DNA of 62,156 bases, from positions 1 through 62,156 of the forward strand of contig JAMPGV010000007.1 in the NCBI GenBank assembly GCA_023663735.1, in the 5' to 3' direction. This document shows, one piece after another, positions 4,622-14,866 of this stretch (position 1 is the stretch's first letter; every line of letters begins with the position of its first letter). The DNA is from Muribaculum sp. GTDB taxonomy: Bacteria; Bacillota; Clostridia; Lachnospirales; Lachnospiraceae. A program made the translations under genes and the position numbers. The notes beneath the pieces were generated by a model that saw only the letters and a program-made list of their open reading frames with translations, was not told where the DNA came from and searched no databases.

Positions 4622-6034
4622 TTACTGAAGCGGGAACTGGAAGTATCTCTTGGCGTTGTGATAGGAGATATTTTCCACGATCTCGCCCAGAATCTCATAG
4701 TCTGCGGGGAACTCGCCGTTCTCCACCCATTTGCCGAGGAGGTTGCAGAGGATTCTGCGGAAATACTCGTGTCTGGTGTAGGACAAAAAGCTTCTGGAGT
4801 CGGTGAGCATTCCCACAAAGCCGGAGAGATTGCCCAGATTGGCCAGAGAGGTCATCTGTTCCTCCATGCCGGTCTTGTGGTCGTTGAACCACCATGCGCT
4901 GCCCTGCTGGATCTTGGCAACCGCCGTGGAATCCTGAAAACATCCGAGAATCGTGCCGATGGACTGGTTATCGTTGGGGTTCAGGCTGTAGAGGATGGTT
5001 CTGGGAAGCTCGTCGGTCACTACCAGAGCGTTCAAAAAGTCTGCCATCTGTGCGGAAGGCGCATAGTTGTTGATGCAGTCGTAACCGGTGTCGGGACCCA
5101 GTTTGGCGTACATCAAAGTATTGTTGTCGCGCTTGCAGCCGTAGTGGAGCTGCATCGCCCAGCCCAGCTTATGGTACTCTCTGCCGACAAAGAGCATGAA
5201 AGCGGTCTTAAATTTCATCTCGTCCTCGCGGCTGAGGGGAATCTTGTTCTGTCTCTTTAAGAAGATCTGTTCGATCTCCTCATCGTCTGCGGGACAGTAC
5301 ATCACATACTCCAGCGCGTGGTCGGAGACGGTACATCCCATGGAGGCGAAGAATTCCATGCGCTGCTTTAAGGCGGTCTTTAAGGCCTCGAAGGTGATGA
5401 TCTCATCCATGCCGCACACGGAAGCCAGCTTGCCCAGATAATCCAGATACTCGGATTTCTCGATATTCATCGCCTTGTCGGGTCTCCATGCGGGGCGCAC
5501 GATCACATCGAAGCTGTCGTCCTCCGCGATCTTCTTGTGCCATTCCAGAGAATCGATGGGATCGTCTGTGGTGCAGATCAAGGTCACATTGCTCTGCTTG
5601 ATGATGTTGCGCACGGACATGGAAGGCTCCTGCAGCTTGGCGTTGCAGAGATTCCAGACCTCGTCGGCGGTCTTGGCGTTCAGCACGCCGTTGTAGCCAA
5701 AGTATCTCTGAAGCTCCAGATGGCTCCAGTGGAAGAGGGGGTTGCCGACGGCTTTGCCGAGGCATTCCGCCCATTTGCAGAATTTGTCGTAATCGGAGGC
5801 GTCGCCGGTGATGTATTTCTCATCGACGCCGCAGGAGCGCATCAAGCGCCATTTGTAGTGGTCGCCGCCCAGCCATACCTGCGTGATATTTTCAAATTGA
5901 CGATCCTCCGCAATCTCCTTGGGATTGATGTGGCAGTGGTAGTCGAGGATCGGGGTCTTTTCCGCATAGTCGTGAAACAGCTTCTTGGCTGTCTCGGTCT
6001 CAAGCAGAAAATCTTTGTCCATAAATGCTTTCAT
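4622..6034 (-). CDS. uxaC: Glucuronate/galacturonate isomerase
   Basis: A 470-residue protein, the normal length of UxaC. It interconverts D-glucuronate and D-fructuronate, and D-galacturonate and D-tagaturonate, the first cytoplasmic step of hexuronate use. The sequence opens with the family text MKAFMDKDFLLETETAKKLF, has the amidohydrolase-like metal motif DYHCHINP near residue 30, and contains LGGDHYKWR and the late VGMLTDSRSFLSYTRHEYFRR block. The start at 6034 has AGGAGGT just upstream. It has its own promoter at 6135-6163 and stops at a bidirectional hairpin. The next pathway enzymes, UxaB and UxaA, are encoded divergently from 13.4 kb, separated by the AT-rich protease island. Confidence 0.95.
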   Translation of the reverse strand: MKAFMDKDFLLETETAKKLFHDYAEKTPILDYHCHINPKEIAEDRQFENITQVWLGGDHYKWRLMRSCGVDEKYITGDASDYDKFCKWAECLGKAVGNPLFHWSHLELQRYFGYNGVLNAKTADEVWNLCNAKLQEPSMSVRNIIKQSNVTLICTTDDPIDSLEWHKKIAEDDSFDVIVRPAWRPDKAMNIEKSEYLDYLGKLASVCGMDEIITFEALKTALKQRMEFFASMGCTVSDHALEYVMYCPADDEEIEQIFLKRQNKIPLSREDEMKFKTAFMLFVGREYHKLGWAMQLHYGCKRDNNTLMYAKLGPDTGYDCINNYAPSAQMADFLNALVVTDELPRTILYSLNPNDNQSIGTILGCFQDSTAVAKIQQGSAWWFNDHKTGMEEQMTSLANLGNLSGFVGMLTDSRSFLSYTRHEYFRRILCNLLGKWVENGEFPADYEILGEIVENISYHNAKRYFQFPLQ

Positions 6035-6134
6035 TTTAATACCTCCGTTTGATTGTGATTAAGATATCCGTATAGCCGCACCGTTTGCATCTATAAATCA
6101 GGTATGTCTGCACGGTTCCATAAAACTAATTCTG

Positions 6135-6163
6135 ATTATACCGAATGCCGCGGCTTTTTTCAA
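6135..6163 (-). promoter_or_regulatory. uxaC promoter
   Basis: On the minus strand TTGAAA (6163-6158) and TATAAT (6140-6135) are 17 bases apart, about 100 bases upstream of the uxaC start. The -35 lies only 15 bases from the protease-tail repeat beginning at 6178. Confidence 0.7.
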
Positions 6164-6177
6164 GATCAAAAGCAGGG

Positions 6178-6260
6178 AAATTGACAGTTGATTCGGATAA
6201 TCGTGTTGACATAGAGACGATTGACACATATTCGAATACCGTGTTATATTTTTCATAAGC
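6178..6260 (+). repeat. Solo copy of the M4 protease gene tail (72 bp) carrying a promoter-like sequence
   Basis: Bases 6178-6249 match the 3' end of the protease gene (10500-10571) with three mismatches over 72 bases. One mismatch turns TTGATA into TTGACA, so the copy contains TTGACA (6221-6226), an 18-base spacer and TATATT (6245-6250), a plausible promoter for the gene at 6372. The next bases, TTTTCATAAGC, match the sequence found downstream of the fourth small membrane gene (near 13187). The segment may therefore be a scar left when a tail-plus-gene unit was deleted. Confidence 0.7.
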
Positions 6261-6371
6261 GCAAGAAACGACTATGATGCAAATAGGATCCTGTAAAGGC
6301 CGTTGGGCGGATTGCGCAATCGGATTTTGGCAAATATTGGATGGATTTGTCTGGGAAGGGAGAAGTTTGAT

Positions 6372-6974
6372 ATGGGAAATGCGGACAATTTAGGAAGTGA
6401 GGCTAAGGGGGAGCGCGAGGACAATAGGGAGCAGACGGCCGGGAAACAGGAGCGTGTGAAACGCCGCGTCAACAATCTGAAAGGAATCCTTTTTTTCTTG
6501 TTTATAGCTTGTCTGTTGTCTGTGGCCGTCACAACCTTGATTCCGTTTAAGCGGGGGATCGCCGGGGAATATACGGCCGATGTGGTCAGTCTTTCCACAC
6601 ATGAGAAGACCGGGGAGGCGCAGATCCGTTTCTCGGGTACCTACACACAGTATTTGTTCAATATGATGTTTCGGGATCGCTTTGAGGGAGCGTTTTATGT
6701 GGAGGGGAATCCTTTGTCTGACAAATACGGCGGACATGCTTTTATTGATTTTGAAAAGGCGTTTTCCCCGGCCAAAACCGGTGTGGTGTGCTATTATAAC
6801 GAGGAGGATAACCGGCTGGAACCTATGGGAATGATTAATCAGAGAGCGCAGATGCAGTCGGGGTATCTGATTTTGAATACTGCCATGACGGAAGGAGAGG
6901 ATGATCTAGTACTGGTTTTCCCGCAGAACCATTCAGGAGTGCAGCTTGATTTGGAGAAGTACCTCGGGCTTTAG
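6372..6974 (+). CDS. Single-TM membrane protein of unknown function
   Basis: About 200 residues from the ATG at 6372, which has AAGGGAG upstream; an earlier in-frame start at 6303 has no ribosome site. A charged cytoplasmic N-terminus (about 37 residues, rich in E, K, R) is followed by one TM helix (about 39-58, GILFFLFIACLLSVAVTT) and a roughly 140-residue extracytoplasmic domain of predicted beta character. No cysteine pairs, lipobox or known motif were recognised. It is immediately downstream of the solo protease-tail repeat, whose promoter-like sequence could drive it, and upstream of the M4 protease. A role linked to the protease island is possible only by position. Confidence 0.75.
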   Translation: MGNADNLGSEAKGEREDNREQTAGKQERVKRRVNNLKGILFFLFIACLLSVAVTTLIPFKRGIAGEYTADVVSLSTHEKTGEAQIRFSGTYTQYLFNMMFRDRFEGAFYVEGNPLSDKYGGHAFIDFEKAFSPAKTGVVCYYNEEDNRLEPMGMINQRAQMQSGYLILNTAMTEGEDDLVLVFPQNHSGVQLDLEKYLGL

Positions 6975-7141
6975 GCGGCGCGTCGGAGTCTGTCGTTTAT
7001 TTTTTGTCAGGCGCGGCATAAAAAAGCGGGAAAATTGATTCTGGCAATTTGACGGACAAATTTATAATGCGGTTGATATAAAAACATTAAATATGATAGT
7101 ATAAAAATAATTTATTTTAGAATCACATCATTTCACAAATC

Positions 7142-7219
7142 GAGTTTCGCAAATACATAGACATGTTTAGGCGTTTGCGAAACTCTTATTTCAGCAAAGA
7201 GTCATTTGTGTAAACGCCT
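7142..7219. mobile_element. Internally deleted MITE-like element, short copy
   Basis: GAGTTTCGCAAA (7142-7153) and TTTGCGAAACTC (7174-7185) form a perfect 12-bp inverted repeat. A 51-bp unit, 7169-7219, starts AGGCGTTT and ends AAACGCCT. Read on the plus strand it matches the reverse complement of the right arm of the 199-bp element at 12563-12761 (the GCGAAACTCTTATTT, GCAAAG and GTCATT blocks). So both are copies of one family, this one reduced to its ends. Confidence 0.65.
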
Positions 7220-7307
7220 AGATATGTTAAATGCAGGGAGAAGTAAAAGATAATAGTGATTTGAGTCAAAATCATATGACAGGTACATCTATGGAAAGGA
7301 TATATAC

Positions 7308-7324
7308 GCAAAGCGATACTTTGC
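7308..7324 (+). promoter_or_regulatory. Inverted repeat upstream of the M4 protease gene
   Basis: GCAAAG-CGATA-CTTTGC, a 6-bp perfect inverted repeat about 40 bases before the protease start, could be an operator. The rest of the 6975-7361 gap is AT-rich and holds the short MITE copy; I see no convincing coding sequence in it. Confidence 0.35.
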
Positions 7325-7361
7325 TTAGTATATAAATATTGAGAAAAGAAGGATGAAACGA

Positions 7362-10300
7362 ATGATGAAAAGAAGAACCCCCAAAGGTATGACGAGAGCG
7401 CTTGCCGTTCTTTTATCAATCGGTATGCTTACCGGTGGTACAAATATTACGGCGTTTGCGGAAGATTACACCGCATCGCCTGAAGATGCACCAATCGTGT
7501 CAGTATCACCGGAGGGAGAGCCGGCACAAACAGACGATCTTTGGGACGGGATAACCATGGAGTCTATCTATGAGGGAGACGGATTTCAGGTCAAATTCCA
7601 ACTTGAGAGTTGTTGGAACGGGGGTTTTAATGCCAAAGTAGGAATCGATAACACGGGAGAACTTGAAATCAGAAACTGGTGTATTGCTTTTGATTATCAG
7701 GGAGTACTTACAAATGTATGGAATGCAGTCCTGACATCTTCAGATGCCGGAAATATTATCGTAAGAAATGCCGGTTGGAACAAGGATATTGCGGTAGGTC
7801 AAGGAGTGGAATTTGGAATCAGCTGTAATGAGAACTTTGCCGGATTCCCTGACAAGTATCAGATTTCAGGTGAATTTAACAGTCTGAATACGGAAGATTA
7901 CAGCATAGCGTATGAAGTGGTCAGCGAATGGGAAGATGGGTTTAACGGTAACATCTTAGTTACAAATCATACGGATGTTCCGATTGAAGAATGGTATTTG
8001 GAATTTGATTATAATGTGGAGATCAATAATCTTTGGAATGGTACAATTGTATCTAATGAAGATAGTCATTTTATCGTAAATAATTATGGCTTCAACGCTG
8101 CCATTCAGCCCGGTGAAACGATTACAATCGGATTTACCGGAAGACATTTAGATGATCAGAGTTGTCCGTCCAATAGTGTATTACATACGTTTGCCTATGA
8201 ACCAATCGAAAATCAGGATACCTATATTGTTACTTTTGATTGCTCCGCTGCGGAAGTGATGAATGCTCCTGCCGAGCAGACAGTGCTTGCCAATGATCTG
8301 GTGAAGGAACCGATTGCGCCCTCTCGTGTCGGTTACTTATTTGACGGATGGTACGCGGATGCGTTGTATACGATTAGATATGATTTTTCTGCTCCTGTGA
8401 CCGGTAGTCTGACCTTGTATGCGAAATGGCAGCAGATGAATGACAATTTAAATGATGATATTATTGATCGGGGAGATATAGAATACTTAAAAACGTTAGG
8501 ATTGCTTGAAGTAGGTTATAGCGCTTCCGGTGGTATATCGTATATTTATGGTGATTTTTGGAATAAAAAGGTTCATTCCGTTGAAGATGCGGCCGAGGTA
8601 TTGAATGCTTCCTCATCTTTGTGGGGCGACGGGTTCCATGCTTCGGCTGCTGAAATCGGTGTCAAGACAGTAGGAGAAGGCAGTGAATTAGTAAGCTATT
8701 ACACTTATACACCGGTGGTCAGAAATGTACCGGTTGTAGGCAGCCAGATTAAGTTGATGGTAGAGTCAACAGGCAGCATATATGCACTTTTTAACAGCTA
8801 TGATAAAAGAATTGTCAGAGTGAGTACGACTCCTGCAATCACACAAGAGCAGGCAGTAGAGATTGCATTTGACGCTCTGTTAGGAAGTGACAGAGTAGTA
8901 GAATTTGTCAATGATTCTATGGAGCAAATCACCGCGCTTTATGAAGAGGATGTAATGGACAGAGTCCGGATCCTTGAGCATATTAAGGGATCGGCAACAG
9001 TAAGTGCATCACTGAAGATTCAGTGTATGAATGAGGACGGTCCTAAGTTGGTATATGTGATACATCTGCGCAATTCATCAGCGGCAGACACAGATGAAGT
9101 TCCCGTTAGGCTTGCATACTCCGTAACATATCTCATTACAGCGAATGGCGATGCAGGTCAGATCATCAGAGAGGTTTCATCAAATAGCAATGCTTATTTG
9201 ACCGCTTCCGATGGCAAGGCGGACAGGCGCATTGAAGTTACAGAGGACGGAAATGACTATGTATTGATTGATGCATCAAGAAATATTTCGACATACAAAT
9301 CCACCTATACGAAATTCTTAATTTGGCCAGACTATAAGTTCCCGGGGGATTTGGTTAGAGTAAGCAAAGGTTCTGCTCCGGATGAAAGGGCTGTTACCGT
9401 TCATGCAAACATGGCGGAAGTTTTTGATTATTACAAGAATCAATTATCACGTAATTCTTATGATAATCAGGGTGCAGCGATCATCATCACATATGATTAT
9501 GAAGGAAGTAGGAATAACGCCTGTTGGGATCACAATTTGGAGCAGTTTGTCTTTGATAAGATAGGAGATCTGATAAAGGCGAAGGATGCGGTGGCACATG
9601 AGTTTACACACGCTGTATTTGAGAGTGTTGTTTATTCTATGGATACAAAGACTTATAATAGCAACTATTTTGGTGAAACAGGGGGATTAAATGAGGCCTA
9701 TGCAGATATTATGGGCAATCTCATAGAAGGGAAAACGGACGGCGGGCAATGGACCTATGCGGAGGATGTAGAGACAGGCAGAGATATGAAGGATCCTACT
9801 AAGTATAATCAAGTGGATCATTATTCCGATATTAAAAGTTATGTACATAGCCCTTATGACCGTGGCGGAGTTCATACTACAAGCGGAGTGATAAACAAAG
9901 CCGCTTATCTAATGATGACTGACGATCGCACTTCCGGAATCACTTCAACAACATGGGCTAAGATTTTTTATAGTTCGATGTATAATTTGACGGAAACTGC
10001 CACTTTCCTGCAAGCCCGGGAGTCCATTATTGCTGTGGCAAAGAAAAGGAACTTCAACAGTGAACAGCTGCAGGCAATAAAGGACGCCTTTGATGAAGTG
10101 GGAGTCATTGAACCGGATGCTATAGAAATAGTATTAACTTGGGGAGCATCACCAAAGGATTTAGATTCGCATTTGGTGGGACCTATTGCATCATCCGAAA
10201 ACCGATTCCATTTGTATTATGGAAAGAGAGATATTGGAGACGCAGGAACGGATTCCTGGCAGGCTGATTTAGATTATGATGACGGATCGTCATTTGGCCC

Positions 10301-10577
10301 GGAGGTAGTTACCATTCGACAGTTGGTGCCGGGAACATATTATTTCTATGTATATGATTTCTCTGACGGAGGACTTTCTGACTCATCTGCCCTTTCTAAC
10401 TCAGGCGCCAAGGTGCGGGTGTATAGGGGAAATGAGACAACGCCAATGAACGAGTTTACCGTTAGGCCAAATCAAGTCGGTACTTATTGGAATGTCTTTA
10501 AATTGACAGTTGATTCGGATCATCGTGTTGACATAGAAACGATTGATACATATTCGAATACCGTGTTATATCAGTAA
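7362..10577 (+). CDS. Secreted M4 (thermolysin-like) metallopeptidase with carbohydrate-binding-like modules
   Basis: About 1,071 residues. The start at 7362 is chosen because AGAAGG ends nine bases upstream; the ATG at 7353 abuts that site. In order: a signal peptide cleaved after AFA (about residue 33); two CBM2-like beta modules (about 70-160 and 182-268, each with WNGG/W-x-FDY and LWNGT-type aromatic patterns); an InlB-type repeat (about 285-355, GYLFDGWYAD); a thermolysin propeptide region (about 370-610); the M4 catalytic domain with zinc motif HEFTH (746-750), Glu ligand in GGLNEAYAD and catalytic His in GGVHTTSG; and a C-terminal DUF2135-like domain (about 925-1030, SPKDLDSHL, FGPEVVTI). 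All catalytic residues are present, so it should be an active extracellular protease, possibly retained on glycans. It is markedly AT-richer than its surroundings. Parts of its 3' end are copied four more times nearby. Confidence 0.9.
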   Translation: MMKRRTPKGMTRALAVLLSIGMLTGGTNITAFAEDYTASPEDAPIVSVSPEGEPAQTDDLWDGITMESIYEGDGFQVKFQLESCWNGGFNAKVGIDNTGELEIRNWCIAFDYQGVLTNVWNAVLTSSDAGNIIVRNAGWNKDIAVGQGVEFGISCNENFAGFPDKYQISGEFNSLNTEDYSIAYEVVSEWEDGFNGNILVTNHTDVPIEEWYLEFDYNVEINNLWNGTIVSNEDSHFIVNNYGFNAAIQPGETITIGFTGRHLDDQSCPSNSVLHTFAYEPIENQDTYIVTFDCSAAEVMNAPAEQTVLANDLVKEPIAPSRVGYLFDGWYADALYTIRYDFSAPVTGSLTLYAKWQQMNDNLNDDIIDRGDIEYLKTLGLLEVGYSASGGISYIYGDFWNKKVHSVEDAAEVLNASSSLWGDGFHASAAEIGVKTVGEGSELVSYYTYTPVVRNVPVVGSQIKLMVESTGSIYALFNSYDKRIVRVSTTPAITQEQAVEIAFDALLGSDRVVEFVNDSMEQITALYEEDVMDRVRILEHIKGSATVSASLKIQCMNEDGPKLVYVIHLRNSSAADTDEVPVRLAYSVTYLITANGDAGQIIREVSSNSNAYLTASDGKADRRIEVTEDGNDYVLIDASRNISTYKSTYTKFLIWPDYKFPGDLVRVSKGSAPDERAVTVHANMAEVFDYYKNQLSRNSYDNQGAAIIITYDYEGSRNNACWDHNLEQFVFDKIGDLIKAKDAVAHEFTHAVFESVVYSMDTKTYNSNYFGETGGLNEAYADIMGNLIEGKTDGGQWTYAEDVETGRDMKDPTKYNQVDHYSDIKSYVHSPYDRGGVHTTSGVINKAAYLMMTDDRTSGITSTTWAKIFYSSMYNLTETATFLQARESIIAVAKKRNFNSEQLQAIKDAFDEVGVIEPDAIEIVLTWGASPKDLDSHLVGPIASSENRFHLYYGKRDIGDAGTDSWQADLDYDDGSSFGPEVVTIRQLVPGTYYFYVYDFSDGGLSDSSALSNSGAKVRVYRGNETTPMNEFTVRPNQVGTYWNVFKLTVDSDHRVDIETIDTYSNTVLYQ

Positions 10578-10587
10578 GGAGTAGCCG

Positions 10588-10998
10588 ATGAGTAAGAGGA
10601 AGGAAATATTTATTATGAAGAAATATGTTATTGCTTATTCCGTTTTGTTTTTGATTCTTTTGGGATTGGGATTGACGCATGGAATACCGTTTGGTATTAC
10701 CATTTGGGAGAAGAATTGGAGCATGGCAACTTATCCTGAAACAATTCGGGAAATTGTGCTGATTTACAATATTATCATTATGTGGTTGTGCTTCGTGATT
10801 GCGGTTATTCTGACGAAGCAGAAACAAAATGTTTTAAAATGCAAGTGGCTGATCCCGGTTATCATGTTCATTTGTCTCGCATTCCTGCCGATGGGTATGT
10901 ATGAGTGCGTTATCTATGTTCCCTGGAAATATAAAAAGGAATTTTGGTCCTTCATTTCATTACTTACACATCAACATGACATAGGAATTTATCATTAA
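10588..10998 (+). CDS. Three-TM small membrane protein, paralogue 1
   Basis: 136 residues, starting at the ATG at 10588, which follows AAGGAG by seven bases and lies ten bases after the protease stop, so it is probably co-transcribed with the protease. An internal ATG at 10615 corresponds to the start used by the other paralogues. Three TM helices (about 12-32, 54-76, 84-104 from the first Met) flank an outside loop with the conserved D/NWS.A.YPE motif and a positively charged inside loop (KQKQN.LKCK). Topology is inferred from the positive-inside rule. No family is recognised. Being fixed directly behind a secreted protease and then amplified suggests a partner such as an immunity, export or regulatory protein, but this is inference. 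Confidence 0.8.
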   Translation: MSKRKEIFIMKKYVIAYSVLFLILLGLGLTHGIPFGITIWEKNWSMATYPETIREIVLIYNIIIMWLCFVIAVILTKQKQNVLKCKWLIPVIMFICLAFLPMGMYECVIYVPWKYKKEFWSFISLLTHQHDIGIYH

Positions 10999-11045
10999 GC
11001 ATAAACTTTCCATAAGCTTTTAGGATGGGGCTGTAGGCAAACAGA

Positions 11046-11200
11046 GATATTGGAGACGCAGGAACTGATTTCTGGCAGGCTGATTTAGATTATGATGATG
11101 GATCGTCATTTGGCCCGGAGGTAGTTACCATTCGACAGTTGATTCGGATTATCGTGTTGACATAGAAACGAGTGACACATATTCGAATACTGCATTACCT
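11046..11200 (+). pseudogene. Protease C-terminal fragment, array copy A
   Basis: Matches the M4 gene from its DUF2135-like domain (starting DIGDAGTD) to near its 3' end, but lacks 187 bp. The breakpoint is at GACAGTTG, an 8-bp sequence present at 10318-10325 and 10505-10512 in the intact gene, so deletion occurred between short direct repeats. The join shifts the frame and stops at TAG 11163-11165. There is no start codon, so it is not translated as a useful protein. Confidence 0.8.
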
Positions 11201-11269
11201 TTTAATAAGGACTATTTGTTTCATGAGGAATATCTGATGCATAAGATGAAAGAGAGAAGGGGCGTTTAT

Positions 11270-11653
11270 ATGAAGAAATATGTCATTGCTTATTCTGTTT
11301 TGTTTTTGATCCTTTTGGGACTGGGATTGACGCATGGAATACCGTTTGGTGTTACTGTTTACGAGTTGGATTGGAGCACGGCATTTTATCCTGAAGTAAT
11401 TCGGGAAATTTTGTTAATTTACAATATCATCATTATGTTGGCGTGTTTTGTGCTGGCGGTTATTCTGACAAAGCAGAAACAAAATGGTTTAAAATGTAAG
11501 TGGCTGATCCCGGTTATCATGTTCATTTGTCTCGCATTCCTACCGATGGGTATGTATGAGCGTGTTCAATATGTTCCCTGGGAATATGAAAAGGAATTTT
11601 GGTCTTTCATTTCATTAATTACACATAAGCATGACATAGGGATTTATCATTAA
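11270..11653 (+). CDS. Three-TM small membrane protein, paralogue 2
   Basis: 127 residues from the ATG at 11270 behind GAAGGGG; an upstream TTG at 11216 would add an 18-residue leader and is less likely. Same layout as paralogue 1: MKKYVIAY start, three TM helices, outside loop with VYELDWSTAFYPE, inside loop KQKQNGLKCK. From the second inside loop to the C-terminus it is identical to paralogue 3, while the loop between TM1 and TM2 differs. Preceded by a damaged protease tail whose TTGACA could supply a promoter. Function unknown. Confidence 0.75.
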   Translation: MKKYVIAYSVLFLILLGLGLTHGIPFGVTVYELDWSTAFYPEVIREILLIYNIIIMLACFVLAVILTKQKQNGLKCKWLIPVIMFICLAFLPMGMYERVQYVPWEYEKEFWSFISLITHKHDIGIYH

Positions 11654-11700
11654 GCATAGACTTTCCATAAGCTTTTAGGATGGGGCCGTAGGCAAACAGG

Positions 11701-11855
11701 GATATTGGAGACGCAGGAACTGATTTCTGGCAGGCTGATTTAGATTATGATGATGCATCAGCATTTGGTCCGGAAGTAGTTACCATTCGACAGTTGATTC
11801 GGATTATCGTGTTGGCATAGAAACGATTGACACATATTCGAATACTGCATTACAT
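11701..11855 (+). pseudogene. Protease C-terminal fragment, array copy B
   Basis: Second copy of the deleted protease tail, with the same GACAGTTG junction and frameshift to an early TAG. It carries TTGACA at 11827-11832 and TACATT at 11851-11856 with an 18-base spacer, a possible weak promoter for the next gene. Confidence 0.8.
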
Positions 11856-11924
11856 TTTAATAAGGACTATTTGTTTCATGAGGAATATCTGATGCATAAG
11901 ATGAAGGAGAGAAGGAGCGTTTAT

Positions 11925-12308
11925 ATGAAGAGGTATGTCATTGCTTATTCCGTTTTGTTTTTGATTCTTTTGGGACTGGGATTGACGCATGGAATACCGT
12001 TTGGTGTTACTGTTTCCGAGTTGGATTGGAGCATGGCAACTTATCCCGAAATAACTCGGGACCTTTTGTTGATTTACAATATCATCATTATGTTGGCGTG
12101 TTTTGTGATGGCGGTTATTCTGACGAAACAGAAACAAAATGGTTTAAAATGTAAGTGGCTGATCCCGGTTATCATGTTCATTTGTCTCGCATTCCTACCG
12201 ATGGGTATGTATGAGCGTGTTCAATATGTTCCCTGGGAATATGAAAAGGAATTTTGGTCTTTCATTTCATTAATTACACATAAGCATGACATAGGGATTT
12301 ATCATTAA
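11925..12308 (+). CDS. Three-TM small membrane protein, paralogue 3
   Basis: 127 residues from the ATG at 11925, preceded by a GAAGGAG-type site. Nearly identical to paralogue 2 at the ends, but with changes concentrated in residues about 28-58: VSELDWSMATYPE in place of VYELDWSTAFYPE, and R-D-L in place of R-E-I. The C-terminal half, including TM3 and the tail ending HKHDIGIYH, is unchanged. Function unknown. The clustering of differences in the predicted outside loop and TM2 is the notable feature. Confidence 0.75.
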   Translation: MKRYVIAYSVLFLILLGLGLTHGIPFGVTVSELDWSMATYPEITRDLLLIYNIIIMLACFVMAVILTKQKQNGLKCKWLIPVIMFICLAFLPMGMYERVQYVPWEYEKEFWSFISLITHKHDIGIYH

Positions 12309-12355
12309 GCATAGACTTTCCATAAGCTTTTAGGATGGGGCCGTAGGCAAACAGG

Positions 12356-12510
12356 GATATTGGAGACGCAGGAACTGATTTCTGGCAGGCTGATTTAGAT
12401 TATGATGATGCATCAGCATTTGGTCCGGAAGTAGTTACCATTCGACAGTTGATTCGGATTATCGTGTTGGCATAGAAACGATTGACACATATTCGAATAC
12501 TGCATTACAT
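12356..12510 (+). pseudogene. Protease C-terminal fragment, array copy C
   Basis: Third copy of the deleted protease tail, essentially identical to copy B (same DASAF variant, same TAG). It lies upstream of the MITE insertion that separates it from paralogue 4. Confidence 0.8.
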
Positions 12511-12562
12511 TTTAATAAGGACTATTTGTTTCATGAGGAATATCTGATGAATACGATTGAAT

Positions 12563-12761
12563 AGGCAATTGCGAAACTCCAATTTTCGTAATCCGAATTG
12601 TGCAGATTGTATACTCCATAAGCAGACCCTAGCGAACCGTCGGTACTTAGATGCCGTATTTTGGCATCTTACGTACCGTTACGGTGAAGGTGGGACGTCT
12701 GCGTTGGAATATACAATTTGCACAATGACCCTTTGCCAAAATAAGAGTTTCGCAAACGCCT
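12563..12761. mobile_element. 199-bp MITE-like palindromic element
   Basis: The unit starts AGGCAATTGCGAAACTC and ends GAGTTTCGCAAACGCCT, imperfect 17-bp terminal inverted repeats. Inside, further arms pair in order: ATTGTGCAGATTGTATA with TATACAATTTGCACAAT, then GCAGAC with GTCTGC, ACCGT with ACGGT, GGTAC with GTACC, and AGATGCC with GGCATCT around a GTATTTT loop. The whole element is therefore one long hairpin. It interrupts the leader of paralogue 4, adding 213 bases relative to the other units. It encodes no transposase; a 68-codon open frame across it is a by-product. A related 51-bp copy lies at 7169-7219. Confidence 0.8.
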
Positions 12762-12792
12762 GATAAGATGAAGGAGAGAAGGAGGCGTTTAC

Positions 12793-13176
12793 ATGAAGAA
12801 ATATGTCATTGCTTATTCTGTTTTGTTTTTGATCCTTTTGGGACTGGGATTGACGCATGGAATACCGCTTGGTATTACCATTTCTGAGCAGGATTGGAGC
12901 ATGGCAACTTATCCCGAAGTAATTCGGGACATTATGCTAATTTACAATATCGACATTATGTGGGCGTGCTTCGTGATTGCGGTTATTCTGACAAAGCAGA
13001 AAGAAAATGGTTTAAAATGCAAGTGGCTGATCCCGGTTATCATGTTCATTTGTCTCACATTCCTGCCGGTGGGTATGTATGAGCGTGTTCGCTATGTTCC
13101 TTGGGAATATGAAAAGGAATTTTGGTCCTTCATTTCATTACTTACACATAAACATTACATAACAATTTATCATTAA
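12793..13176 (+). CDS. Three-TM small membrane protein, paralogue 4
   Basis: 127 residues from the ATG at 12793 behind GAAGGAGG. Same three-TM layout. Most diverged of the array copies: ITISEQDWSMATYPEVIRD in the outside loop, a D in TM2 (NIDIMWACF), KQKENGLKCK inside, and a changed tail (HKHYITIYH). It is closest to paralogue 1 in TM2 (MW.CFVIAV). Its leader contains the 199-bp palindrome, whose hairpin may affect expression. It is the only array member followed by a complete terminator. Confidence 0.75.
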   Translation: MKKYVIAYSVLFLILLGLGLTHGIPLGITISEQDWSMATYPEVIRDIMLIYNIDIMWACFVIAVILTKQKENGLKCKWLIPVIMFICLTFLPVGMYERVRYVPWEYEKEFWSFISLLTHKHYITIYH

Positions 13177-13200
13177 GCATAGACTTTTCATAAGCTTTTA

Positions 13201-13258
13201 GGATGGGGCGTGAGCAATGGAGTTTCAAGTATTCTATTTTCGCAGCCCCATCCTTTTT
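13201..13258 (+). terminator. Terminator at the end of the small-membrane-gene array
   Basis: GGATGGGGC (13201-13209) pairs with GCCCCATCC (13245-13253), followed by TTTTT. Upstream copies 1-3 retain only the 5' arm (TTAGGATGGGGC) before the next protease-tail fragment, so only this one is complete. Confidence 0.8.
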
Positions 13259-13318
13259 CGGTATGACGGACATTTTTGTGTTGGCGGCATAATTGTAGTG
13301 GAAAATATTTGGAAAATA

Positions 13319-13327
13319 TGTTATAGT
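13319..13327 (+). promoter_or_regulatory. Extended -10 promoter element for uxaB-uxaA
   Basis: TGTTATAGT is a good extended -10 about 75 bases before the uxaB start. No strong -35 is visible, which suits an activator-dependent or regulated promoter. Confidence 0.45.
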
Positions 13328-13405
13328 AAGTTTATTAGAGCGGAGAAACCGGCAGCGGCCGGAAACTTAAGATGCGCAGGGCGCGCAGAATGGAGGATAT
13401 AGATC

Positions 13406-14866
13406 ATGGAAATCTTAAACAAGTCAATGACAGGCAGAAAAGAGAGACCGGTCAAGGTGGTTCAGTTCGGCGAGGGCAATTTCCTTCGCGCGTTCGTGGA
13501 CTACATGATTGATATCGCCAATGAGAAGGGAACCTTCGACGGAGATATCGTTCTGATCAAGCCCATCGAGTTCGGCAATCTGGACATGTTCCACAAGCAG
13601 GACTGCCAGTATACGGTGTCTTTGCGCGGCAATGTGGACGGCGAGGGCAAGATTATCAACCGCGTGGTGACCAGCGTGGCCGATGCGGTTGACACGTTCA
13701 ACGAGTATGAGAAATACATGAGCCTTGCTGAGATTGACACGCTTCGCTTTGTGGTATCCAACACCACCGAGGCGGGCATCGTGTTTGACGACACCGACAA
13801 GTTTGAGCTGAATCCTCCTAAGACTTTCCCCGGAAAGCTGACTAAGTTCCTGCACCACAGATTCGAGACCTTTCAGGGGGATCTGTCCAAAGGCCTTGTG
13901 ATGCTGCCCGTGGAGCTGATCGACGACAACGGCATCATGTTGAAGAAATGTGTGATGCAGCTGATTGATCTGTGGGGACTGTCCGCAGATTTCAAGAAAT
14001 GGGTGGAGGACGCCTGCATTTTCACCGCTACCTTGGTGGACCGCATTGTCACCGGATACCCCCGCGCCACCGAGCAGGAAGAGTGGGAGAAACTGGGCTA
14101 TGAGGATCACATCATGGTGACGGGCGAGCCGTTTGCCCTCTGGGTCATCGAGTCCGACAAGGATATCAGCAAAGAGTTCGATCTGCCCGGCGCAGGACTG
14201 CCCGTGGTATTTACCGACGATCATCACCCCTACAAACAGAGAAAAGTGCGTATCTTAAACGGCGCGCATACATCCTTCGTGCTGGCGTCCTGGCTGTGCG
14301 GCAACGATATCGTGAGACAGTCCATGGAGGACGATGATATCCGCAATTTCATGAACAAGACGATTTTTGATGAGGTTATTCCCACGCTGACGCTTCCTGA
14401 GGACGAACTGAAGGCGTTTGCCGGAGAGGTAGTAAACCGTTTCAACAATCCTTATGTGGATCATGCGCTGCTGGCCATCTCCTTGAACTCCGTGTCCAAG
14501 TGGAGGGCGAGATGTCTTCCCAGCCTGCTCGGCTATGTGGACAAATTCGGAAAGCTCCCCGCGCACATGACGTTCTCCATTGCGGCGCTGATGGCATTTT
14601 ACACCGGAACCGAGATCCGGGACGGCGCGCTGATCGGACACAGGGACGGTCAGGAGTACAGCGTGAAGGACGACATGCCTGTGCTGGAATTCTTCCGCGA
14701 CAACTGCACGAAAGAGACGAGGGCGTTTGTGACCGCTTATCTTGGCAGAGAGGACTTCCATGGTCAGGATCTGAACAAGGTTCCCGGACTCACCGACGCG
14801 GTTGTGGCTTATCTGGATGATATTAAGACAAATGGAATGAGGGCGGCATTATGCAGAATTTCTTAA
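13406..14866 (+). CDS. uxaB: Tagaturonate reductase (altronate oxidoreductase)
   Basis: 486 residues, start ATG 13406 behind GGAGG. It reduces D-tagaturonate to D-altronate with NADH, the second step of galacturonate breakdown. It belongs to the mannitol dehydrogenase-like polyol dehydrogenases: an N-terminal Rossmann segment (VKVVQFGEGNFLRAFVDYM, about residues 17-35), the family's VVSNTTEAGI block, and the C-terminal catalytic motif KxxxLNGAHT near KVRILNGAHTS (about 282-292). Its 3' end overlaps the uxaA start by 16 bases, so the two are one operon. UxaC is encoded divergently about 7.4 kb upstream. Confidence 0.95.
   Translation: MEILNKSMTGRKERPVKVVQFGEGNFLRAFVDYMIDIANEKGTFDGDIVLIKPIEFGNLDMFHKQDCQYTVSLRGNVDGEGKIINRVVTSVADAVDTFNEYEKYMSLAEIDTLRFVVSNTTEAGIVFDDTDKFELNPPKTFPGKLTKFLHHRFETFQGDLSKGLVMLPVELIDDNGIMLKKCVMQLIDLWGLSADFKKWVEDACIFTATLVDRIVTGYPRATEQEEWEKLGYEDHIMVTGEPFALWVIESDKDISKEFDLPGAGLPVVFTDDHHPYKQRKVRILNGAHTSFVLASWLCGNDIVRQSMEDDDIRNFMNKTIFDEVIPTLTLPEDELKAFAGEVVNRFNNPYVDHALLAISLNSVSKWRARCLPSLLGYVDKFGKLPAHMTFSIAALMAFYTGTEIRDGALIGHRDGQEYSVKDDMPVLEFFRDNCTKETRAFVTAYLGREDFHGQDLNKVPGLTDAVVAYLDDIKTNGMRAALCRIS

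Follow-up and report, generated by a model that had tools for sequence, protein, structure and literature searches.

Damaged protease tails, probably passengers of a tandem duplication, alternate with small membrane genes in a Lachnospiraceae genome

Strings of non-identical immunity paralogues (esaG, tipC and tsaI) of the type VII secretion system (T7SS) have been described in Staphylococcus and Streptococcus by Garrett and colleagues (PMC9484751). In the portions of that article that concern us here, the immunity genes are tied to T7SS-exported toxins, orphan immunity genes are also described, and recombination between paralogues is reported for esaG and tipC, with no clear recombination for tsaI. 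The esaG and tipC immunity genes have a conserved core and variable parts. TsaI and TipC are membrane-bound, and the tsaI cluster holds a pseudogene that resembles part of a toxin. The orphan cdiA-CT/cdiI modules of contact-dependent growth inhibition (CDI) are a second point of reference (PMC3150448); in the excerpts of that article used here, the orphan ends are unrelated to one another, and the CDI ends tested are functional toxins. In this work we describe an array of damaged protease tails and small membrane genes, situated behind a gene for an M4 metalloprotease, in a 62,156-nt stretch of DNA from a bacterium deposited as Muribaculum sp. and placed in the Lachnospiraceae by GTDB. This stretch, at its full length, is referred to as the window. 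The explanation that we favour, to which we assign a probability of roughly 0.55 as a whole, is that the tails were carried along as passengers when a tandem duplication arose by chance, and that the small genes are kept for a protective role.

The array, and the deletion that its tails have in common, are confirmed. The components are:

7353 to 10577, plus strand: full-length open reading frame (ORF) of the M4 metalloprotease, with two CBM2 domains, one Flg_new domain and the M4 catalytic and C-terminal domains
10318 to 10504, plus strand: 187-bp segment of the protease 3′ end, between the GACAGTTG repeats of 10318 and 10505, that is retained in none of the three damaged copies
10615 to 10998, plus strand: small membrane gene 1 (127 aa)
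11042 to 11200, plus strand: damaged tail copy 1 of the protease 3′ end
11270 to 11653, plus strand: small membrane gene 2 (127 aa)
11697 to 11855, plus strand: damaged tail copy 2
11925 to 12308, plus strand: small membrane gene 3 (127 aa)
12352 to 12510, plus strand: damaged tail copy 3, identical to copy 2 in the two pieces compared (97 and 67 nt)
12793 to 13176, plus strand: small membrane gene 4 (127 aa)

All four small-gene frames are open, and each protein has three hydrophobic stretches, in agreement with the three transmembrane segments proposed in a first-pass annotation of this DNA. That annotation also had the intact protease followed by the first paralogue, and gene 1 indeed begins 37 bp past the protease stop codon, or 10 bp if an alternative upstream ATG (10588) is used. 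Its three units with an exact 655-bp period hold for the tails and for genes 1 to 3; there are four small genes, however, and the start spacings are 655, 655 and 868 bp, the last being longer because a palindromic repeat (12562-12761) has been inserted before gene 4. The two CBM2 stretches, the one Flg_new and both M4 domains of the protease score above the Pfam cut-offs. A DUF2135 domain had been assigned to the protease as well, and this assignment has to be withdrawn: the last 160 residues match PF04151 alone, below the cut-off (E 0.0055).

The history of the tails can be read from their offsets. The protease piece at 10218-10325 is repeated at 11034, 11689 and 12344 (offsets 816, 655 and 655), and the piece at 10505-10571 at 11134, 11789 and 12444 (offsets 629, 655 and 655). 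As 816 - 629 = 187, the same 187 bp are deleted in all three tail copies. GACAGTTG has two sites in the intact protease gene (10318 and 10505) and a single site in each damaged copy, and since 187 is not divisible by three, the deletion shifts the frame. Compared without gaps across 67-300 nt, the array copies are 88-94% identical to their own reference copy, far above chance. A shared deletion between direct repeats had been reported before and is present in 3/3 copies; this sameness supports the accompanying suggestion that one damaged tail-plus-gene unit came first and was then amplified.

The other end of the duplicated unit is marked by a further feature:

13200 to 13259, plus strand: terminator-like hairpin and T run 3′ of gene 4 (-31.3 kcal/mol, z -6.5)

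This hairpin is missing from our terminator scan, as its loop exceeds the length that the scan permits. At the corresponding position in units 1 to 3 the 5′ arm alone remains, followed by protease-tail DNA, and there is no notable fold (-10.7 to -12.3 kcal/mol). The arrangement of gene plus hairpin is also seen at two homologue loci, L012 and L013, where the common DNA extends from 23 bp upstream of the start codon to the hairpin. Given that copies 1 to 3 end in the 5′ arm and copy 4 has the full hairpin, we infer that the duplication breakpoint lay inside the terminator.

Bacterial genes are commonly duplicated or amplified in tandem between short repeats, with unequal exchange to follow. A chance event of this kind, with the tails as passengers, most likely accounts for the origin of the array. 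On this account, a small membrane gene ending in a terminator of its own would have stood immediately downstream of the protease gene, in an island unseen in the relatives that we examined. A tandem duplication would then have arisen by chance between a point in the protease 3′ end and a point within the gene's terminator, giving a tail-gene unit. One tail would have lost 187 bp between the 8-bp repeats, and unequal exchange would subsequently have multiplied the damaged unit. The order of these events is what we infer from the present layout. By eye, ATGGA is found near both breakpoints; as microhomology it is too short to carry weight.

Genes 1 to 4 are all pairwise different. Genes 2 and 3 differ at 17 of their 384 positions, none of them beyond nt 204 (p = 1.5e-5), and the next 421 bases are identical, which indicates that exchange between units continued, unless this is an artefact of assembly. 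The window is one contig (C71) of a genome of 2.65 Mb that is 87% complete, consists of 73 contigs and was, we take it, assembled from a metagenome; the order and number of copies come from this contig. A draft assembly could in principle have combined the variants of several strains, or misjoined a repeat, and the exact 421-bp repeat at offset 655 is what such a product might contain. That said, the pairwise differences, which for genes 2 and 3 are confined to the first 204 nt, mean that at least four gene variants were assembled, and the outer junctions of the array, with the intact protease and with the terminator, are single. We judge an assembly product to be improbable.

Are the small proteins partners of the protease? 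The first-pass annotation suggested that they protect against, export or tune it, extra copies giving a higher dose. The short distance between the protease stop codon and gene 1 is in keeping with this, as are the four open frames and the loss of the terminator hairpin from copies 1 to 3, which makes read-through possible. A partner gene should be linked to the protease in other genomes, and here the check in databases went against the proposal. With a profile from a 41-row alignment, the small gene was found in 6/138 genomes of the genus, a count that includes a remnant (G491) and a distant relative (G522). In a family sample, 4/397 genomes matched and two were kept, the genome of the window and G004. 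The other two, weak hits in L007 and L008, were dropped as they are located in ORFs of 442 and 454 aa, which we take to be FtsW/RodA-type proteins. A scan of genome contigs gave two small-gene loci, one of which (L013) is the same stretch as in G480. The matches in that scan are labelled uncultured Lachnospiraceae; the name of one homologue, P0043, gives Acetatifactor sp. as its source.

Searched against the genus, the whole protease is matched mostly in its first 400 residues, the CBM2 part, and for this reason Peptidase_M4_C was used as the linkage query. It occurs in 3/138 genus genomes and coincides with the small gene in the genome of the window only. There is no match to Peptidase_M4_C (E <= 1e-5) in any of the seven other genomes with the small gene or a relative of it, five of which are at least 90% complete; one of the seven has the remnant only (G491), and two have distant relatives (G004 and G522, about 28-31% identity). 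The protease likewise gave no tblastn hit (E <= 1) in the eight small-gene loci of these seven genomes. One locus (G400) is near a contig end and some genomes are incomplete, so that single absences are weak; the combined absences are not. Conversely, the two other genus genomes with M4_C have no small gene and, by eye, no relative of it beside their M4 genes. On these grounds a protease-partner system is very improbable. In one genome, G406, a 192-aa ORF unlike the small gene, with one N-terminal hydrophobic stretch, is located downstream of the M4 gene on the same strand.

Elsewhere the small gene is single-copy, and by eye its neighbours vary between loci. In G004 (L067:9129-11230) the distant relative is one of five small hydrophobic ORFs in a row, and its four companions have no Pfam match above the cut-off. 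In G398 (L020:8113-13457) a series of small ORFs resembling lipoproteins or membrane proteins, three without a Pfam match, comes after the small gene, a layout that recalls an immunity island. Protein searches returned 42 and 67 homologue hits with no functional name, the one name displayed being 'hypothetical protein'. For 10/42 homologues the longest contig is 500-800 bp, near the 655-bp unit; collapsed short-read arrays are a possible cause, but small contigs are common. Among the papers listed in literature searches, none describes the small family or an M4 protease with such a partner; the small protein has no name under which the literature could be searched.

Orphan toxin-end/immunity modules of the CDI or Rhs type have this layout as well, with the full gene first and then 3′ fragments that are each paired with a small gene; every tail would then be a spare effector end accompanied by the immunity gene for it. 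Mobile repeats nearby also speak for this reading. The three tails, however, are one sequence with a shared deletion of 187 bp, not a multiple of three, where such modules would have differing toxin ends. Moreover, Pfam detects no toxin domain in the last 160 residues of the protease, the sub-threshold PF04151 being the one match there, although absence from Pfam is no proof, and elsewhere the small genes are found in genomes without an M4_C match. We regard this explanation as very improbable.

The array and the protease are contained in an island of ~7 kb between two divergent genes, presumably uxaC and uxaB, for which the gap is 7371 bp here (6034-13406). We compared this site in the eight genus genomes that rank next after the genome of the window for the downstream gene, which had matches in 97/138 genomes. 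In 8/8 of these relatives the gap is 259-2195 bp and contains no match (E <= 1e-3) to the protease or to the small gene; in one of the eight, G480, the small gene is present on a different contig. The contents of the gap differ, with a regulator-like ORF common to three relatives, no ORF of 50 aa in one and other ORFs in the rest, so the site is variable. Another ORF of the island, at 6303-6974 (223 aa), lacks a convincing match in Pfam (DUF2721, E 0.036) and is unmatched in the stretches of the eight relatives.

The left edge of the island holds two features that the first-pass annotation does not include:

6181 to 6249, plus strand: extra protease 3′-end fragment, of which 6183-6252 matches the damaged tail at 90% (own-genome search with the damaged tail)
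6250 to 6260, plus strand: TTTTCATAAGC, an 11-mer directly after the fragment, identical to a stretch in the 3′ flank of gene 4 (13185)

The start of the fragment coincides with the end of similarity to the nearest relative (~6184), and TTTTCATAAGC has 2 occurrences in the window against ~0.03 expected on both strands. Together the two are possible remains of another tail-gene unit, the gene of which may have been deleted. This weighs against a single duplication, as it suggests that the array has an older and more complex history.

The repeat that lengthens the last interval is a further feature of the island:

12562 to 12761, plus strand: palindromic repeat between tail copy 3 and gene 4, resembling a miniature inverted-repeat transposable element (MITE)

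As single-stranded DNA, the segment 12560-12770 has a predicted energy of -53.6 kcal/mol (z -9.7). The ~200-bp repeat has 75 matches in the genome and is present, itself included, in at least 41 places at >=123 bits, a lower bound as 40 of 137 candidates were scored. It is thus short, palindromic and found in many copies, as MITEs are. Pieces of it are also seen by eye at about 7140-7222, upstream of the protease, and two copies (L048 and L050) are flanked on both sides by ~12 bp of similar sequence, as expected of a target-site duplication.

We now turn to the small proteins and to why four of them might be kept. An AlphaFold2 model of low confidence (predicted local distance difference test, pLDDT, 65.6) has helices at residues 2-21, 50-69 and 79-90, strands at 28-35, 42-49, 92-100 and 105-112, and a short helix at 113-118. 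If the charged stretch 69-77 lies inside, the segments that would face outward are residues 26-46 and 97-127. Of the 30 variable sites of the four paralogues, 19 are in these predicted outer segments (19/52 residues vs 11/75 elsewhere, Fisher p 0.006). Pooled ratios of nonsynonymous to synonymous polymorphism (pN/pS) are 1.16 for the first outer loop, 0.39 for the C-terminal segment and 0.24 for the membrane and cytoplasmic parts. In the 41-row alignment, the outer segments have mean column entropies of 1.36 and 1.25 bits vs 0.49-0.74. Across the six gene pairs the NG86 ratio of nonsynonymous to synonymous divergence (dN/dS) is 0.29-0.61.

From these patterns we tentatively propose that the non-identical paralogues may be kept because they are protective, in the manner of immunity or bacteriocin resistance, against something other than the protease. 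We take the conserved core, variable parts and recombining paralogues as a resemblance in working to esaG and tipC, and claim no membership of those families. Rather more doubtful is an extension of this proposal, by which the genes would belong to an undescribed three-helix membrane family of gut Lachnospiraceae, with two variable outer segments, that protects against contact-delivered or secreted antibacterials, the set of four being a repertoire that changes specificities by exchange.

The array and its small genes might instead be a neutral duplication without present use, on the way to being lost. The sporadic presence of the small gene (6/138) is in line with this, as is its decay elsewhere, with a TGA in the G398 copy and only a remnant in G491, and so is the dN/dS of up to 0.61 in one pair, with dN near the tail divergence. 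Yet the frames are open in 4/4 genes, the membrane and cytoplasmic core has the low pN/pS given above, and a purine-rich, ribosome-binding-like stretch is retained upstream of genes 2 to 4 (by eye). We consider neutrality somewhat unlikely.

Several points weigh against a protective role. The damaged tails provide a yardstick for divergence, and gene dN is near it: for units 1 and 2 the tail divergence is 11/164 (0.067) vs a gene dN of 0.091, for units 1 and 3 it is 16/164 (0.098) vs a dN of 0.087 and a dS of 0.26, and for units 2 and 3 it is 9/164 (0.055) vs a dN of 0.034 and a dS of 0.094. Constraint on the whole gene is therefore not firmly shown. The borders of the segments were chosen from the model and from hydropathy after the sequences had been seen, the model itself is weak, and the loops of membrane proteins often vary more than the helices for trivial reasons. 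The small proteins have no convincing match in Pfam, NCBIfam, PADLOC or PHROGs. For all four there is no Pfam match under E 0.3, the comparison with EsaG, TipC and TsaI (DUF443) being made through Pfam only, and structure searches were weak. No LXG protein was matched (E <= 0.001) in 8/8 genomes, the genome of the window being 87% complete, and no toxin was recognised by eye beside the small gene. Finally, the protease and genes 1 to 4 could be read as one transcript, so that they may have a local functional link in this genome. A promoter scan of the array gave 5 sites vs 12.7 expected in shuffles, and so no promoter support.

This example illustrates that a tandem array can mimic a toxin/immunity or a protease-partner locus even though the repeated gene ends are passengers of duplication, and that a check of linkage in relatives can tell passenger tails from true partner loci. 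To our knowledge, little is known about immunity-like systems in this group of gut bacteria; if the small family is protective, it would add an immunity-like repertoire to them. What stays is an uncharacterised family of membrane proteins with immunity-like variation, and a well-preserved case of gene-tail hitchhiking.

How, then, does the locus compare with the described systems? Like the T7SS immunity strings, as far as the cited portions describe them, the array consists of tandem non-identical paralogues with recombination, evident here in the mosaic of genes 2 and 3, which is seen in one contig and subject to the caveat of assembly. Unlike those strings, it has no LXG match in 8/8 genomes here and no toxin recognised beside the gene. 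With the orphan cdiA-CT/cdiI modules, as excerpted, it has in common an alternation of small genes and 3′ pieces of a large gene, located after the intact gene. It differs from them in that its tails all have one sequence, in which a deletion shifts the frame and no toxin domain is recognised, and in that the genomes searched do not tie the small gene to the parent gene. With ordinary tandem duplication the array shares a fixed period, common breakpoints and mosaic copies, and it shows no difference in kind from it.

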